Below are positions 2,590 through 59,671 of a stretch of DNA of 64,000 nt, piece by piece. Source of the DNA: Melioribacteraceae bacterium (GTDB lineage Bacteria; Bacteroidota; Ignavibacteria; Ignavibacteriales; Melioribacteraceae); NCBI GenBank assembly GCA_021740785.1, contig JAIOZI010000016.1:1-64000 (forward strand). The letters are read 5' to 3'. A program made the position numbers and the translations under genes. The notes under the pieces were generated by a model. It did not search any database, had not been told where the DNA came from, and worked only from the letters and a program-made list of their open reading frames with translations. Numbering within the stretch: the first letter of the stretch is position 1; each line of letters opens with the position of its first letter.

Positions 2590-2615
2590 AGCCGGGTTCA
2601 GCCCGGCTTTTTTTT
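2590..2615 (+). terminator. Intrinsic terminator of the M28 peptidase gene
   Basis: AGCCGGG at 2590-2596 pairs with CCCGGCT at 2602-2608 around a 5-base loop, followed by a run of eight T. It lies 14 bases after the stop codon. The T-run leads straight into the left end of repeat element copy 1. Confidence 0.9.
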
Positions 2616-2838
2616 AACCCAGATTTTCCATTGGAAAATCTGCCCTTCGTGCCGACAATTTGTAAGTTGAGAAATATCAAATACTTAGCCATATAGAAAT
2701 TTTGGAATTCGTTATTTGAGTAAAATATTTTTCTTACAAATTGTTGGGGTTAATCCCGCAACATAAAATGTTTTAATAAAACATTTTATGAGCGGCTAAC
2801 GGCAAAAAATTTATTTCCAATGAATTTTTTGGGTTTAA
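2614..2838 (+). repeat. Palindromic mobile-like element, copy 1 (full length)
   Basis: A ~225 bp non-coding element present three times in the window in the same orientation. Its ends read TTAA(A)CCCA and TGGGTTTAA, which are terminal inverted repeats. Inside it are a palindrome centred on CCATTGG (CAGATTTTCCA/TGGAAAATCTG), a 15-bp long-range pair (2652-2666 with 2733-2747), a GC hairpin CGGGGTTAATCCCG, a long hairpin ending ATGAGCGG, and a terminal AAAAAATT.CATT/AATGAATTTTTT-type hairpin. No reading frame runs through it. It looks like a MITE-type or structured intergenic repeat. Confidence 0.85.
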
Positions 2839-2860
2839 CTATTGCGAAAGGTTTTTGTTT

Positions 2861-3229
2861 ATGCCGGAAAATGAGTTCGATAAAATATTCATACGATTGA
2901 AATCTATTTTTGAAAAATTTGAGAATGATCTTACTGTAATTGGTGATAATCAAAAGAACTATTCGCTTGAAGGTCCATATTCGGAAAAATTCAAAAAGAA
3001 CCTATGGTTTGGAGCTGTGCAGATTAAGAAAAATTATGTTAGCTGCCATTTGATGCCGGTCTATATGTACAAAGATTTAGCAGATGATGTACCAAAGGAT
3101 TTAAAGAAAAGAATGCAGGGCAAATCATGTTTTAATTTCAAAAAGTATGATGAAGATTTGTTCAAAAAAATGGAAGATTTTACCGATAAATGCTATACGA
3201 TTTTCTCAAATAGGATGGATAAACTTTAA
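2861..3229 (+). CDS. Conserved-looking hypothetical protein, 122 aa
   Basis: I do not recognise the family. The product is soluble, lysine-rich, and has no signal peptide or membrane segment. A central stretch (NYVSCHLMPVYMYKDL, then KKRMQGKSCFNFKK) looks like a folded alpha/beta domain. I prefer ATG 2861, which has AAAGG about 9 bases upstream, over an in-frame TTG two codons earlier. The gene begins 22 bases after the right end of repeat copy 1, so its promoter is either inside the repeat or in the short gap. It has no obvious functional link to its neighbours. Confidence 0.6.
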   Translation: MPENEFDKIFIRLKSIFEKFENDLTVIGDNQKNYSLEGPYSEKFKKNLWFGAVQIKKNYVSCHLMPVYMYKDLADDVPKDLKKRMQGKSCFNFKKYDEDLFKKMEDFTDKCYTIFSNRMDKL

Positions 3230-3483
3230 TCGAAAGTTATTTTCAACATTTTTACCATGCATAGACCTATTCCGCTTGCCTATAAATTCCAATCAAACTA
3301 ATTTAGTATTGTAAATTAGATAAACTTAACTGCTTTCTCCGTTTCAAAGCTTAACTGTGATGAAAGGGAAAAGAATTTTCAGCCGAAATCCTAAGATGAA
3401 GGAGTAGTTCTGACATCGGGGGATGGAGAATCTCACCTAATACTTTACGTGACCTCCTAACCTTGAAGTTTGATAGACAGAAA
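3230..3483 (+). promoter_or_regulatory. Possible structured 5' leader, unassigned
   Basis: This is a 254-base gap before the TM1266-like gene with several possible hairpins. GCTTT (3332-3336) pairs with AAAGC (3346-3350). CCG...CGG encloses TCCT...AGGA between about 3383 and 3420. A last hairpin pairs GGAG (about 3426) and CAC with GTG and CTCC just before the coding region. The 8-mer CTTAACTG occurs twice. I checked it by eye against cobalamin, TPP, FMN, SAM, Moco, THF and c-di-GMP consensus cores and found no convincing match. It may be a regulatory RNA or simply a long untranslated region. Confidence 0.3.
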
Positions 3484-3732
3484 ATGGAAAAGAAATTCCA
3501 CACATTAACAATCACAATTTACGATAGAAATAAGGCGTATAAAAAAATCGGTGAATTGCTGAATCAATATTCTGATATGATTTTGCTTAGAACAGGATAT
3601 CCGGTTAAAGAAAAAAATGCCGCCATTATCTTTCTTATAGTAGAAATGACAAATGATGAAATTGGCGCTTTGAGTGGGAAAATTGGTCAGATCGAATCGG
3701 TTAAGGTTAAGTCTACGACGTTAAATATTTAA
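3484..3732 (+). CDS. TM1266-family putative iron-only hydrogenase system regulator
   Basis: A small ACT-like protein of 82 residues matching the TM1266 family (putative regulators found near [FeFe]-hydrogenase maturation genes). Diagnostic segments are the N-terminal FHTLTITIYDR strand, the central RTGYPVKEKNAAII, and NDEIGALSGKIGQIESVKVKS near the C-terminus. I use ATG 3484 because family members start close to this point; an in-frame TTG at 3463 would add seven residues. The partner hydrogenase genes are not in this window, and the next gene, 33 bases on, is a TonB-dependent receptor. The role is inferred from family only. Confidence 0.75.
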   Translation: MEKKFHTLTITIYDRNKAYKKIGELLNQYSDMILLRTGYPVKEKNAAIIFLIVEMTNDEIGALSGKIGQIESVKVKSTTLNI

Positions 3733-3765
3733 TAAGATTTTGTGAATTATATTGCGAGGTAAAAA

Positions 3766-6054
3766 GTGAAGAGATTTTTCTTAATCATTGTACTAGTTTT
3801 AATAGGCTTGAATTTATATGCTCAGACCGGAAGTTTAAAAGGATACGTTTATGATGAATCAAACAACGAACCGATTGCAGGAGTAAATATTTCCATTCAA
3901 AACTCGGATTATGCCGCAACAACAAATCAAAACGGATTTTACTCATTCAATAATTTGCAAAGCAAACAATACGATGTAGTCATGTCGCATATTGGTTACC
4001 AAGTAAAAATCTTTAGAATTGATCTTGAGACTAATCAAAAAATTGTGAAAGATATTCACCTGATTCCCACACCAATTAATCTCGGTGAAATTACCGTAAC
4101 AAGCACGTTCAAAGATATTCTGCTGAGAGACGAACCCATGTCGGTAGAAGTTGTCACATCAGATCAAATTTTATTTGATAACAACATCACAATCTCCGAC
4201 GCAATGAAAAACGAACCCGGAGTTTCGGTTACGCGCGACGGTTTATGGACGACCGATGTTGCAATCCGCGGGTTGAGTAAATTTAATGTTGTTACTCTAA
4301 TTGACGGCAATAGAATCGAAACATCCACAGCACATGCTGCAAGATTATCACTGATTGATGTTAATGATATTGAAAGAATTGAAGTAATTAAGGGCGGCGC
4401 ATCGGCATTGTATGGTTCGGGGGCAATGGGCGGCGTTCTAAATGTAATCACCAAATCAGGCTATTACAGTGAAGGATTTAATGTTGGCGGCTCGTTTACA
4501 TCCGGATATAATACGGTTAATAAAGGTTCGTTGGGAAATGTTTCAATCAACGCTTCGGATGATCGCTGGTACGCCAAATTCAGCGGTACGATGAGAAATG
4601 CCTCCGATGCGGAAACGCCTTCCGGTAAACTGAACAGTAGGTTCAGAGATAATAATATCAATGCTTCCATTGGTGTGAGACCGACCGGCAGCCATGAGCT
4701 GATTTTTAATTATCAAAAATTTGACGCAAATGATGTCGGTATCCCGGGCGGGACACCTTTCCCTTCAGCCGCAACTGCAAGGTATATATCATCAAGCCGT
4801 GAACTCTTAAGCGGTGAATACCGTATCAAAAATTTGATGCCCAGCTTGTTGAGCTTTAGTTTTAAATTCTATCATCAAAAAATTATTCGTGATTTGGAAT
4901 TGATTCCTAATGCAAATGCTATTATTAATCCAGGCGCTAAACATGTAATGAACGGACTGCAGATCCAGACAAAATTTCTTATTAATAAATCAAACCTATT
5001 AATTGCCGGTATAGATTCGTGGCAGCGCTCCTATGATGGTTACAGGTATAAACATGTAATTCCTGCAAATCAAACCGTGTTTGAAAAACCTCTTCCGAAC
5101 TCTAAATTTCGAAGCGTCGGGATTTATGGTCAGAATGAAATTCAGTTAATGGGAAAGAAAATCAAACTCTCACTCGGCGGTAGATTTGATTTTATAAAAA
5201 TCACTAATGATGAAGTAAACAATCCGATTAGGATTACCACAAACGGGGTAATAAATAACACTCCACCTGTAAATGAAATCGGATCATTTGAAAAAAACAA
5301 TGTCAATAACTATTCATGGAGCGGAAATATTGGATTGCTCTATAAATTTAATGAGAACTTTAATACATCGCTAAATTATTCACATTCGTTCCGCTCGCCG
5401 AATCTTGAAGAACGTTACCAGTATATTGAATTATTGGGCAACACTTACCTTGGCAACCCTGAACTTGAACCTGAAATCGGTGATTTATTTGATCTGGGTT
5501 TTAGGTATTACGGGAAAAAGATTTCTTTTAGAATTAGTGCATTTTACAATTTCTTAAATAACTTGATGATCGATAGATTTGATTATGCAGACAATGTTTA
5601 TAGGAAGCAAAATGTCGGTTCAGCCGAACTTTATGGTTTTGAGTTTTCAATTGATTATAACATTTGGGGAAGTTTGGTTACTTATGCAAATGCGGCTTAT
5701 GTTAATGGTAAGGATAAAGAAACAGAAGGCTACTTGCCTGAGATTCCCCCGTTAAACGGTGTTCTTGGATTGAAAGGTTCGTTATTAAAATTGGTTAGAA
5801 TGGATTTCTATGTTAAGGCTGCTGATAATCAAAGTAGAACTGCATCCGATGAGACAGAAACACCTGGTTTTGCATTTTATAATTTTACAATCAGTTCAAT
5901 GCCAATTGATATTTTTATGGCAAAACTTTCTATTATAGGTGGAGTTGAAAATTTGTTTAATAAATCTTACAGGAACCATTTATCAACTTATAGAGGATTG
6001 ATAGTAAACGAACCGGGAAGAAATTTTTATATAAAATTAAATTTGACTTGGTAG
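3766..6054 (+). CDS. TonB-dependent outer-membrane receptor
   Basis: An outer-membrane beta-barrel that imports a scarce ligand using TonB energy. The 762-residue product has a signal peptide (to LNLYAQ), a carboxypeptidase-regulatory-like domain at about residues 23-105, a plug domain at about 118-235 (with IRGLSKFNVVTLIDGNR and GGASALYGSGAMGGVLNVITK), then a barrel that ends FYIKLNLTW with the usual terminal aromatic. The GTG start is preceded by GCGAGG. Ligand identity is not clear. Proximity to a cobalamin adenosyltransferase hints at a corrinoid and the preceding TM1266-like gene hints at a metal, but both are guesses. Confidence 0.93.
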   Translation: MKRFFLIIVLVLIGLNLYAQTGSLKGYVYDESNNEPIAGVNISIQNSDYAATTNQNGFYSFNNLQSKQYDVVMSHIGYQVKIFRIDLETNQKIVKDIHLIPTPINLGEITVTSTFKDILLRDEPMSVEVVTSDQILFDNNITISDAMKNEPGVSVTRDGLWTTDVAIRGLSKFNVVTLIDGNRIETSTAHAARLSLIDVNDIERIEVIKGGASALYGSGAMGGVLNVITKSGYYSEGFNVGGSFTSGYNTVNKGSLGNVSINASDDRWYAKFSGTMRNASDAETPSGKLNSRFRDNNINASIGVRPTGSHELIFNYQKFDANDVGIPGGTPFPSAATARYISSSRELLSGEYRIKNLMPSLLSFSFKFYHQKIIRDLELIPNANAIINPGAKHVMNGLQIQTKFLINKSNLLIAGIDSWQRSYDGYRYKHVIPANQTVFEKPLPNSKFRSVGIYGQNEIQLMGKKIKLSLGGRFDFIKITNDEVNNPIRITTNGVINNTPPVNEIGSFEKNNVNNYSWSGNIGLLYKFNENFNTSLNYSHSFRSPNLEERYQYIELLGNTYLGNPELEPEIGDLFDLGFRYYGKKISFRISAFYNFLNNLMIDRFDYADNVYRKQNVGSAELYGFEFSIDYNIWGSLVTYANAAYVNGKDKETEGYLPEIPPLNGVLGLKGSLLKLVRMDFYVKAADNQSRTASDETETPGFAFYNFTISSMPIDIFMAKLSIIGGVENLFNKSYRNHLSTYRGLIVNEPGRNFYIKLNLTW

Positions 6055-6089
6055 AAAAAGAATTTACAAACTTTTAAAAAGAAGACTTA

Positions 6090-6287
6090 TTAAACCCAGA
6101 TTTTCCATTGGAAAATCTGCCCTTCGGGCCGACAATTTGTAAGTTAAGAAATATCAAATACTTAGCCATATAGAAATTTTGGCACTTGTTATTTAAGCAA
6201 AATATTTATCTTACAAATTGTCGGGGTTAACCCCGCTCATAAAATGTTTTATTAAAACATTTCATGAGCGGACTGAGGCAAAAAATT
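6090..6287 (+). repeat. Palindromic mobile-like element, copy 2 (right end lost)
   Basis: Second copy of the element at 2614. It begins with a complete TTAAACCCA terminus and keeps the 15-bp long-range pair at exactly the same spacing (6129-6143 with 6210-6224). Its long hairpin is extended here, CCGCTCAT...ATGAGCGG. The final AT-rich hairpin and right terminus are missing: homology stops at GCAAAAAATT, immediately before the ATG of the DMT transporter gene. GAGG at 6275-6278, within the repeat, is the apparent ribosome binding site of that gene. Confidence 0.85.
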
Positions 6288-7169
6288 ATGGAATGGTTTC
6301 TATTAGCTTTCATCTCGGCTTTGCTTTCGGCAGTTGCCGCAGTTTCACAAAAGAAGATCCTTTTCAATTTGGAAGCTTTGGAATTTTCATTCCTTCTATC
6401 AATTCTTAATGCACTTTTCGCTCTTCCCTTTTTTTTATTAATTGATTTTTCTTCAGTAACTTCAACAGCTCTGCTGCTTCTTTATTTCAAAACGATTTTG
6501 GGCGCGCTGGCATTCTTAAATGTAATGCTTGCAATTAAAAATTTAGAGATCAGCGGAGCACTTCCTCTGATGGTACTTACACCTGGGTTGGTGGCTTTCT
6601 TTGCATTTATCTTACTTGGAGAGGCATTGGAAGGATCCGAAATTTTTGGAATGCTGCTTTTACTTCTCGGTACTTATGTATTGGAAATTCATCACAAGAA
6701 AGACATTCTTCAACCTTTTAAAATTTTCTATCAATCCAAAAATCATCATTACATAATCTATGCTTTGCTTTTTTTTACTGCTACTTCAATTCTGGACAAA
6801 GCATTACTTCGTGATTTTCAATTAACACCTTATGCGTTCATGGGATTTCAGCAGGTATTTATTGCAATAAATTTTTCAATAATTATATTAATCAAGAGAA
6901 AAGATATAAGAGCCATTTTCGGAAAAATTTCACGTGCGAATTGGTTATGGATTATATTAGTTGCGCTTCTGACAGTCGGTTACCGCTATACTCAAATTGA
7001 AGCAATTAAAATAGCTCCTGTTGCATTAGTTCTTTCAGTGAAGAGAATATCTGTTTTTTTTGCCATAATAATCGGCGGGAAATTATTCAAAGAGCGCTAT
7101 CTTTTAAGAAAATCAATTGCTACGATAATACTTTTATCCGGAGCAATACTGTTGATTTCCAATATTTAA
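6288..7169 (+). CDS. EamA/DMT-superfamily permease
   Basis: An inner-membrane transporter of the drug/metabolite superfamily with two EamA halves and about ten hydrophobic segments in 293 residues. The exported or imported substrate cannot be told. The first half carries the GALPLMVLTPGLVAFFAFILLGE pattern at its fourth to fifth helix, and the second half ends with a matching LSVKRISVFFAIIIGGKLFKE pattern. I choose ATG 6288 (MEWFLLAFISALLSA), with GAGG 9 bases upstream, over ATG 6264, which lies inside repeat copy 2 and would add eight repeat-encoded residues. The stop codon TAA overlaps the left terminus of repeat copy 3. Confidence 0.85.
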   Translation: MEWFLLAFISALLSAVAAVSQKKILFNLEALEFSFLLSILNALFALPFFLLIDFSSVTSTALLLLYFKTILGALAFLNVMLAIKNLEISGALPLMVLTPGLVAFFAFILLGEALEGSEIFGMLLLLLGTYVLEIHHKKDILQPFKIFYQSKNHHYIIYALLFFTATSILDKALLRDFQLTPYAFMGFQQVFIAINFSIIILIKRKDIRAIFGKISRANWLWIILVALLTVGYRYTQIEAIKIAPVALVLSVKRISVFFAIIIGGKLFKERYLLRKSIATIILLSGAILLISNI

Positions 7170-7390
7170 CCCAGATTTTCCATTGGAAAATCTGCCCTTC
7201 GAGCCGACAATTTGTAAGTTGTGAAATGTCAAATACTTAGTCATATAGAAATTTTGGTATTCGTTATTTAAGTAAAATATTTTTCTTACAAATTGTCGGG
7301 GTTAATCCCGCAATATAAAATGTTTTATTAAAACATTTTATGAGCGGTCAGCGGCAAAAAATTCATTTCCAATGAATTTTTTTGGTTTAA
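7166..7390 (+). repeat. Palindromic mobile-like element, copy 3 (full length)
   Basis: Third copy, complete, sitting between two convergent genes. The left TTAACCC supplies the stop codon of the DMT permease (7167-7169). The right GGTTTAA supplies the stop codon of the minus-strand cobO gene (7387-7389). The 15-bp pair is at 7204-7218 and 7285-7299. The terminal hairpin, an AAAAAATTCATT stem closing on AATGAATTTTTT, followed by T, could terminate transcription from either side. Confidence 0.87.
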
Positions 7391-7920
7391 CAGTCAATGC
7401 CTTTCCTTGAGATAACGCCTTGCTGATAGTAATGTTTAACCTCTTTCATCTCCGTTACAAGATCGGCTAATTTAATTATAGATTCAGGACAATACCTGCC
7501 TGTAAGTATTAACTCAATATTTTCCGGTCTCGACTTTATGAATTCAATCACATCCTCTTCGGTGAGTAATTTGAAAAATACTGCGACGAAAATTTCATCG
7601 AGAATAATCATGTTAAATTTTCCCGATTGCATCTTGCTCGATGCGCTCTGCAATGCTGATTTTGCAAGTTCTATTTCGGATTCCGGTGGATTTTCTTTTT
7701 TGAAAACGAATTCATCTTTACCGACAAAATTTATATCAATTAATCCGGCAAACTTTTCTAGTGATTTTCTTTCGCTATAGGGGAAATCCTTCATGAATTG
7801 CGTAATGTGGATTTTCAAACCGGCTCCCGCTGCTCTTAATGCCGAACCCAGAGCTGCAGAAGTTTTACCTTTACCGTTCCCCGTATAAACTTGGATATAA
7901 CCTTTGCTTAAATCACCCAT
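7387..7920 (-). CDS. cobO: Cob(I)yrinic acid a,c-diamide / corrinoid adenosyltransferase
   Basis: Transfers the adenosyl group of ATP to a reduced corrinoid, in adenosylcobalamin synthesis or salvage, in the cytoplasm. The 177-residue product is full length for the CobA/CobO/BtuR family. It has the P-loop GNGKGKTSAA near residue 15, the acidic strand MIILDEIFVAV near 105, a LILTGR segment, and the C-terminal TEMKEVKHYYQQGVISRKGID signature. Its start overlaps the end of the DUF1289 gene by 13 bases, so the two are probably translated together. The stop codon lies in the adjacent repeat element. Confidence 0.93.
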   Translation of the reverse strand: MGDLSKGYIQVYTGNGKGKTSAALGSALRAAGAGLKIHITQFMKDFPYSERKSLEKFAGLIDINFVGKDEFVFKKENPPESEIELAKSALQSASSKMQSGKFNMIILDEIFVAVFFKLLTEEDVIEFIKSRPENIELILTGRYCPESIIKLADLVTEMKEVKHYYQQGVISRKGIDC

Positions 7921-20666: not shown

Positions 20667-21809
20667 ATGATTAGAAAATTCACACTGCTTTTACTTGCCT
20701 TCCTTACTACAAATATTATGGCTCAGCTTGATTTTGATTTTGATGATGAACCTATTGAATGTACACATTCCAGCCTGGATATTCCAATTAGCGGTGCCGG
20801 TTTGAGTTTCGGTAATTCTCAAAACCACAACGGAATAAGATTCAACCTAACCGATTGCGATGTTGGCACAATAAACGGAATTAATTTTACATTTTGGAAA
20901 CCGGATAGAAATCCGAATGCAGTAATTAACGGATTGGCTTTAGGCGTTGCTCCACACGCAGCTAATATAAACGGAATCTCTTTCGGTATTGCCGGTGTGA
21001 TCGGGGAGAAAAACTTGAACGGAATTAATATCGGGGGACTCGCTGTTGTTGCCGGCGGTTCTATGACGGGTATTAACATCGGCGGACTTGCTGTTGTTGC
21101 AGAGGGAAATTCGGGATTCTTAAATGTCGGCGGATTGGCAGTAGTTGCCGAAGGTAATCTTACCGGATTTAATTTTGCATCGTTAGCATCTGTATCGAAT
21201 GGAAATCTTACAGGATTAAATTTCGGCGGACTTGCGCTTGTAACCGAAGGCAGTATGACTGGTATTAATTTCGGCGGACTCGCCCTGGTTAGTGAAGGGA
21301 ATAAAACGGGAATTAATATCGGTGGATTAGCTAATGTATCCGAAGGTTCAGTTACCGGAATTAACATTTCAGGTCTTGCAACGGTTGCACAGGAAAACAT
21401 AACGGGATTGAATTGCGGCGGATTAGCTTTAGTTTCTGAAAGATCAATTACCGGAATTAATTTCGGCGGATTGGCATCGGTTGCGGAAGATGAAATTGTC
21501 GGTATTAATTTTACCTTAGGAAAGGCTGTCGGCGAGCAGGCAATTTCGGGATTTAACTTTGCCGGTTATAAAACCGAAACAGAGGATTTTACAGGAATAA
21601 ATATATCCGCCACTTGGTCAGAGATAGATGATATGACAGGAATTTCGGTTGCATCCTTTAACAAAATTGAAAAAAGAATGACAGGAATTTCAATTGGTAT
21701 TTTGAATATCGCAGAGGTTTTGAAAGGCATTCAAATTGGTCTAATAAATATTGCAAACAATAACCCGGTTCCGTTTAAAGTACTGCCGGTTATCAATGCG
21801 AACTTCTAA
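20667..21809 (+). CDS. Exported 16-residue-repeat protein (LA_2272-like surface repeat)
   Basis: 380 residues with a signal peptide (to TNIMAQ), an acidic linker DFDFDDE, and about 15 tandem units of 16 residues. Each unit is built as GINxGGLAxVxEGxxT, so glycine/asparagine turns and small hydrophobics recur regularly, which suggests a solenoid or beta-helix. The last units degrade to GISIGILNIAEVLK and GIQIGLINIANNNP, followed by VPFKVLPVINANF. The ending and repeat style resemble the LA_2272 surface-repeat proteins. At DNA level the unit is 48 bp with silent variation. No catalytic motif is present. It has its own promoter, divergent from the TPR gene. Confidence 0.8.
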   Translation: MIRKFTLLLLAFLTTNIMAQLDFDFDDEPIECTHSSLDIPISGAGLSFGNSQNHNGIRFNLTDCDVGTINGINFTFWKPDRNPNAVINGLALGVAPHAANINGISFGIAGVIGEKNLNGINIGGLAVVAGGSMTGINIGGLAVVAEGNSGFLNVGGLAVVAEGNLTGFNFASLASVSNGNLTGLNFGGLALVTEGSMTGINFGGLALVSEGNKTGINIGGLANVSEGSVTGINISGLATVAQENITGLNCGGLALVSERSITGINFGGLASVAEDEIVGINFTLGKAVGEQAISGFNFAGYKTETEDFTGINISATWSEIDDMTGISVASFNKIEKRMTGISIGILNIAEVLKGIQIGLINIANNNPVPFKVLPVINANF

Positions 21810-59447: not shown

Positions 59448-59530
59448 TTTTTATATTATTCTGGTTTTTCAATAGCCACTTGTCAGTTTTAATCACCGTA
59501 GCTTTAGGGTAGGTGATAGTCAATATTCAA
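59448..59530 (+). repeat. Dispersed direct repeat, copy B (~83 bp)
   Basis: Gapless counterpart of 564-646. It differs at a handful of positions, for example AGCCACTTG for AGTCAATCG and AGGGTAGG for AGTATAGG. It lies immediately before heptamer array 2. Confidence 0.75.
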
Positions 59531-59531
59531 T

Positions 59532-59671
59532 TCACCGCTTTTACTCTACACGCTTTGCTCTTTGCCTTTTGCTTTTGGATTTTTTCCATTTCTCCTTTTC
59601 TTTTTGCTCTCTGCGCAATGCCCTTTGCCTTTCACCCTTTGCGCTTTGCTTTCTGCCCCTCACTCCGCCTC
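59532..59671. repeat. Heptamer array 2 (CTTTGCY-like, strict 7-bp phase)
   Basis: Twenty 7-bp units in one phase, including CTTTGCT (59553), CTTTGCC, TTTTGCT, TTTGGAT, CTTTTCT, TTTTGCT, CTCTGCG, CAATGCC, CTTTGCC, TTTCACC, CTTTGCG and CTTTGCT. The neighbouring pair CTTTGCC-TTTCACC also occurs in array 1 (412-425). It ends 16 bases past the stop side of the DUF4340 gene, at the 3' end of the Gld-like operon. Confidence 0.8.

Follow-up and report, generated by a model that had tools for sequence, protein, structure and literature searches.

What kind of element is the palindromic sequence that occurs three times within 5 kb of a Melioribacteraceae contig, which enzyme would have spread it, and does its fold matter? 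The window analysed here is the first 64,000 nt of contig JAIOZI010000016.1; the assembly it belongs to, GCA_021740785.1, is referred to below as the host genome. A first-pass annotation had reported three copies, and all three are real. It had placed their ends at TTAA(A)CCCA; CCCA and TGGG are the element ends, while the outer TTTAA or TTAAA belongs to a 5-bp target duplication. The features are as follows.

2613..2617, plus strand: target duplication TTTAA to the left of copy 1 (identical flanks)
2618..2833, plus strand: MITE copy 1, complete, 216 bp, CCCA...TGGG
2618..2642, plus strand: left end of copy 1, the terminal inverted repeat (TIR) folded back on itself (CCCAGATTTTCCATTGGAAAATCTG), from the sequence and as helix 1 of the copy-1 fold
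2652..2747, plus strand: central long stem CCGACAATTTGTAAG...CTTACAAATTGTYGG enclosing an inner (core) hairpin, from sequence, fold and span conservation
2801..2833, plus strand: right-end hairpin and right TIR of copy 1
2834..2838, plus strand: target duplication TTTAA to the right of copy 1
6090..6094, plus strand: TTAAA to the left of copy 2
6095..6287, plus strand: MITE copy 2, without its right end
7165..7169, plus strand: target duplication TTTAA with the stop codon of an EamA-like gene, left of copy 3
7170..7385, plus strand: MITE copy 3, complete, 216 bp
7386..7390, plus strand: target duplication TTTAA with the stop codon of a cobO-like gene, right of copy 3

The annotated internal hairpins were borne out by RNA folding (minimum free energy −66.4 kcal/mol vs −37.8 for shuffled sequences, sd 3.8). 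In each of the three copies the long-range pair covers exactly 96 bases (2652-2747, 6129-6224 and 7204-7299), and the variants of the GGGGTTAAYCCC hairpin are present between copies as described. By manual count, the left and right 17-mers of the element agree at 12 of 17 positions. No ORF of at least 80 aa lies inside any window copy, which also agrees with the annotation. One ORF begins within copy 2 and continues into the EamA-like gene; position 6288, just past copy 2, is a possible start of that reading frame. The cobO-like gene (7387-7920, minus strand) is convergent with the EamA-like gene.

The host assembly is a draft of 4.85 Mb in 115 contigs. Of 195 initial candidates from a DNA search, 40 were scored, and every one gave a near full-length match. 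When up to 3 mismatches were allowed, a 24-base core pattern was found at 92 places in the host genome and at none with the reversed control, which excludes chance; the left-end and right-end patterns gave 100 and 69 places, with reversed controls of 0 each. An nhmmer profile run on the pattern-found loci detected 129 places, or 123 after removal of 6 secondary palindromic hits, and this number is a lower bound. The 123 places comprised 72 near-complete copies, 29 cut by a contig end and 23 partial or diverged, one copy falling into both the cut and the near-complete class; 62 lay on one strand and 61 on the other. The annotation had named a total of just three copies with no relatives as a result that would speak against it; copy number proved high, and relatives exist.

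Seventy of the 72 near-complete copies were aligned (two internally deleted ones were omitted), and the element was 201-220 bp long in these 70 copies. Of the 70 full copies, 60 had the usual long-range span, and in 10 it was altered by indels (84-102 vs 98); the genome-wide value of 98 is the 96 of the window plus one extra base on each side. When two of the 72 were dropped for lying near locus ends, no ORF of at least 80 aa overlapped 63 of the 70 scored copies by more than 40 bp, and the stop codon of an ORF lay at the element boundary in 17 of the 70, window copy 3 among them. Among 60 copies with both neighbours, the flanking genes were convergent in 17, tandem in 32 and divergent in 11; for comparison, the ORF pairs of the window itself were 6 convergent, 36 tandem and 5 divergent. 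Median divergence from the consensus was 1.1% for copies cut by a contig end (n = 29) vs 5.1% for full copies (n = 71), indicating that the youngest copies broke the assembly; the element thus accounts for 29 contig-end fragments in the host draft genome. One left-end fragment, on contig C52, adjoins a gene that looks, by eye, like a PAS-type sensor.

Identical 5-bp flanks were found in 57 of 71 copies. Identical flanks of 4 bp occurred in 2 of 71 and those of 3, 6, 7 or 8 bp in none; in 14 of 71 an identical 5-bp duplication was absent. When flanks were exchanged between copies, 14% still matched over 5 bp, since all flanks are NTNAN-like. We also found an empty site at C18:1153-1198, where the same dispersed repeat lacks the element and carries a single ATTAG; its one mismatch is a variant that occurs in filled copies too. 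A shared right flank was seen in nine places and a shared left flank in eight because the element sits inside another dispersed repeat, so that part of the copy number derives from the duplication of that repeat. At about nine places, the element occupies an identical ATTAG site in this separate host repeat (L313:1101-1242; flanks of L014, L026 and L030).

MITEs are elements of about 50-600 bp that have TIRs, carry no transposase gene, produce a target duplication of fixed length and occur in many, mostly intergenic copies. The window element is such a MITE by its length, lack of a gene, TIRs, 5-bp duplication, copy number and intergenic location. The uniform duplication together with the empty site indicates movement by a DDE-type transposase, and the annotation had likewise read the element as a non-autonomous transposable element requiring an enzyme in trans. 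Palindromic, mostly intergenic sequences in high copy number might also be REP/REPIN-like repeats, spread by a Y1 transposase (RAYT or IS200/IS605) acting on single-stranded hairpins. To our knowledge, Y1 elements produce no target duplication and none is expected of REP/REPIN sequences, whereas a 5-bp duplication and an empty site are DDE features; we regard this origin as highly improbable.

Which DDE transposase, then, would move the MITE? A search for a full-length transposon with the same TIRs, as the annotation had proposed, was successful in part: IS1380 elements with similar ends exist elsewhere, but no intact IS1380 transposase was found in the host. Nine transposase loci were examined for their ends. 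Four of them (L256, L283, L177 and L253) contain elements of 1442-1488 bp with a similar TIR, identical 5-bp flanks and a transposase gene; the five others, tested alike, showed no such ends. The L256 transposase is intact (442 aa) and L283 has an open frame of 461 aa, while L177 has a 384-aa ORF with homology over 440 residues and the frame of L253 is in three pieces. The L256 protein scored 252 bits on the IS1380 model NF033539 (cut-off 180) and 175.5 bits on PF13701 (cut-off 34.7), and homologs of it were found in 20 of 97 genomes. The 5-bp duplications of the four elements are of the NTNAN type. By manual count, the two ends of the window family share 14 and 12 of 17 positions with the IS TIR, the left end of copy 1 being equal to the TIR CCCAGATTTGTCATTAG of L256 at 14 of 17 bases. 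IS1247, a member of the IS1380 family, is listed with inverted repeats of 16/13 and a DR of 5 bp (PMC3281130).

The host itself holds a trace of an IS1380 transposase, a 96-residue remnant with 2 stops (C16:10020-10307), and the PF13701 profile had no match on the host draft of 115 contigs. The remnant (L295:1501-1788) lies about 0.7 kb from an element copy and has no clear ends by eye. Three related MITEs (L213, L191 and L276) align to the 5′ noncoding region of the IS elements, with z of 7-18 for the best partner; the interior of copy 1 showed no clear similarity to the four IS 5′ regions (z ≤ 3.1). The window family has similar ends and, in copy 1, an interior without a clear match, and we therefore call it IS1380-type by its ends, rather than a proven deletion derivative.

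A DDE family other than IS1380 could produce 5-bp duplications as well, for example ISH3, IS1634 or a Tn3-type transposase. The PF01609 profile detects two DDE_Tnp_1 proteins in the host; the one examined further belongs to the IS1634 family. DRs are given as 5-6 bp for IS1634 and 4-5 bp for ISH3 (PMC2266710). The IS1634-type element examined has different ends (CCTGACTTGTGA) and lies between 150-bp direct repeats, and the TIR of the MITE resembles that of IS1380 elements, so that we consider another DDE family improbable. The transposase at C48:1821-3311, situated between two element pieces, was considered as the host partner and rejected: it is of the IS1634 family (336 bits on NF033559) and its ends differ. 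It marks an insertion, about 1.65 kb long and of the IS1634 family, within an element copy (L053:1575-3519, C48), with 150-bp element repeats on both sides. For IS1634 and IS1549, duplications are reported to be long and variable (8-514 bp), no mechanism being put forward (PMC2266710).

Very probably, then, the repeats are a MITE whose ends a DDE transposase of the IS1380 family recognised in trans and which was pasted into 5-bp targets that became duplicated. The ends and the duplication lead us to infer an IS1380 transposase as the mover of the window family. In the proposed mechanism, the enzyme would bind in trans the ends CCCAGATTTTCCATTGG and CCCAAAAAATTCATTGG; each end, with its TIR folded on itself, may provide paired putative binding sites. 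The gene-less 216-bp element would be cut out and then pasted into a 5-bp NTNAN target, often one containing TTAA, and the target would be duplicated at insertion. The enzyme was presumably once encoded in the host genome and is now either lost or unassembled.

A search of 37 relatives did not yield the complete element, and the family could thus not be traced through time. Any match to the element occurred in 7 of 38 genomes, the host counted; the best outside the host covered 141 bases at 70% identity, in genome G020. The left-end pattern with up to 2 mismatches was present in 17 of 58 genomes, again counting the host. A sharper TIR, TNANCCCARATTTGTCATTAG, was found exactly in 11 of 79 genomes of the host's family, with 0 exact matches in the host genome itself, and in at least 120 stretches of a wider genome set. 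Among the matches listed, TNANCCCARATTTGTCATTAG came mostly from Melioribacter, Stygiobacter, Chlorobiota and Bacteroidetes/Bacteroidales, with a few from other groups, for example Nitrospirae and Thermoanaerobaculaceae. Pairing of ends with equal 5-bp flanks yielded many MITEs of 77-389 bp and some larger elements; related MITEs ending in this way are present in Bacteroidota as well as in other Ignavibacteriota. For folding, 34 end pairs were kept after doubtful pairs and duplicates of a single place had been omitted. Some longer end pairs (2.3-4.5 kb), in which one end had five mismatches, were attributed to chance. An inverted TIR pair 2.65 kb apart in genome G011 was rejected as one transposon and read as two separate elements, because its flanks are unequal and it has no apparent transposase ORF.

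The fold itself might be what selection maintains, as a small structured RNA or an RNA/DNA hairpin module (for example in termination, stabilisation or transposition control), with mobility secondary. The copy-1 RNA fold has a z of −7.5 vs shuffles, in favour of this, and the opposite strand folds with z = −6.2. The annotation had held that differences between copies preserve pairing, and that substitutions breaking stems as often as keeping them would speak against it. Among single changes at Watson-Crick stem pairs in the 70 copies, 291 break the pair and 136 leave G-U, and of the two-sided changes 16 retain pairing and 10 lose it. Stems are thus broken about twice as often as they are kept within the family, and the argument from preserved pairing is not supported there. 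The G-U share of single changes was 0.32, only slightly above the 0.26 predicted from unpaired sites, and wobble pairs showed no RNA-strand bias (Fisher p = 0.53). With stems broken 2:1 and no strand bias, the window family alone does not demonstrate selection on folding. Stem columns do vary less than unpaired columns (4.9% vs 7.2%), which counts in favour of a selected fold but could just as well result from enzyme-binding ends and recent descent.

Covariation tests on the 70 copies gave a divided picture. RNAalifold predicted 25 pairs, with two-sided change in none. In the copy-1 fold of 79 pairs, two-sided change was seen in 12 pairs vs 6.5 in shuffles (reached by 4 of 500), but slid controls gave up to 21; two-sided cells numbered 16 vs 8.2 shuffled (reached by 3 of 500), yet slid controls reached 29 cells. 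The covariation score of 0.058 was reached by 4 of 500 shuffles and exceeds the slid controls (≤0.031), in keeping with a selected fold. Within-family covariation was rejected as proof of RNA function. Nor did the window contain an Rfam family at gathering level; in E-value mode (the element, one relative and window 3200-3520), Rfam gave weak matches alone.

The claim that the folded form matters fared better outside the family, where the central hairpin of related families shows compensatory change. Besides the TIR, MITEs of other genera have in common a hairpin with a CGAY base and RTCGGG(G/A)TTAA on its 3′ side. Scanning for this motif gave 25 places in loci outside the host list vs none in 0.97 Mb of shuffled loci; some of these are copies from the host (L134 and L142 at least), and L302 is probably unrelated. 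Twelve of the 17 located cores, from Ignavibacteriota and Bacteroidota, were aligned by plain MAFFT, that is, without fitting to structure. Two-sided change occurred in 10 of 21 pairs, in 37 cells vs 14.8 shuffled, and the covariation score was 0.394 vs at most 0.203 in slid controls. Against a selected fold, 146 of 500 shuffles reached 10 two-sided pairs, the 12 cores comprise about three stem types, and pair types were not above shuffles (489 of 500).

A core model built from this MAFFT alignment matched further families that had not been used, including some in Chlorobiota and Bacteroidales MAGs (E 5e-6 to 9e-5), in a search covering 100 of 313 loci. The structure-fitted alignment of 41 matches (35 distinct) showed two-sided change in 16 of the 21 core-hairpin pairs and in 141 cells vs 42.5 shuffled (reached by 0 of 500), and its covariation score, in an alignment fitted to structure, was 0.495 vs at most 0.208 in slid controls. 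Both alignments count for a selected fold by their two-sided changes. The fitting itself weakens the second, and its mismatched cells outnumber G-U cells 59 to 10; this excess is explained at least as well by correction between palindrome arms in DNA as by selection on RNA.

The window family stands at the margin of the core model. The best window matches had E of 0.11 and 0.21 with the first core model and 0.049 and 0.59 with the second, all in copy 2. Six of the 7 weak window matches to the second model (E ≤ 5) fall inside element copies, which make up about 1% of the window length, though matches on both strands of one copy are not independent. Across 116 genomes at E ≤ 0.5 and with stricter filters, the second model found the core in 9 (one of them no better than 0.40) and did not find it in the host, which counts against a functional-hairpin reading of the window family. 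Under the model, the window family thus marginally matches the core hairpin, at the right place. On balance, selection on the fold as the primary explanation seems to us unlikely. Slightly less doubtful, though still unlikely, is the proposal that a conserved hairpin with covarying pairs and an invariant 3′ tail (UCGNNUAA-stem-UAANNCGGGGUUAA), kept for a function in RNA or in extruded DNA, is common to the IS1380-type MITEs found in Ignavibacteriota and Bacteroidota, with the window family as a divergent member that bears the module on either side of its GGGGTTAAYCCC palindrome. If functional, the shared hairpin would constitute a structured unit carried along by a single family of transposons. 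The covarying hairpin of the relatives is the part worth following.

Other features were noticed in the window. A dispersed repeat at 338-647 and 59448-59636 has 84-bp copies that are 90% identical and 58.9 kb apart and adjoin degenerate TGCTCT...TTTGCCTTTCACC runs. The segment 3350-3480 is non-coding and structured-looking by eye, just upstream of a TM1266-like hydrogenase regulator and a TonB receptor; Rfam had no match near the gathering score at 3200-3520. A 48-bp periodic repeat at 21021-21493 appears GINIGGLAVV-like by eye.

The likely enzyme, missing from the first-pass annotation, can now be supplied as one of the IS1380 family. In a literature search on IS1380, MITE, Melioribacter or IS1634, no title or abstract opening describing IS1380-type MITEs was found. 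REP/REPIN sequences share with the window element a palindromic form and an extragenic location, but are 20-40 bp in size vs 216 bp, by the abstract of PMC3733652. Prokaryotic MITEs are AT-rich and almost exclusively intergenic according to PMC4596501. Like the bacterial MITEs of Porphyromonas gingivalis treated there, BrickBuilt included, the window element is short and gene-less with inverted ends. BrickBuilt has TIRs nearest to those of ISPg1/ISPg9, 19 copies and duplications that vary in length; the window family differs in that its duplication is uniformly 5 bp and its copies number about a hundred.

A piggyBac study uses IS1380 transposases as its outgroup (PMC10813416). The piggyBac end motifs it describes, CCCTT/CCCAT among them, and the TTAA targets with the variants TTAG, TAAA, CTAA and TCAA are similar to those found here, but piggyBac elements are eukaryotic and make a 4-bp duplication. 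A close likeness is to IS1380-family IS elements (L256, L283, L177, L253 and IS1247), whose TIRs also start with CCC and which also produce a 5-bp duplication. NTNAN-type targets are common to the window family and the four IS1380 examples, and the subterminal TTTCTAATGACCGCCATTAG of IS1380 IS elements recurs in some related MITEs. Unlike these IS elements, which measure 1.44-1.49 kb and encode a transposase, the window family is gene-less, and its ends differ from theirs at 3 and 5 of 17 positions. Gene-less elements share their ends with IS1380 transposons across several bacterial groups.
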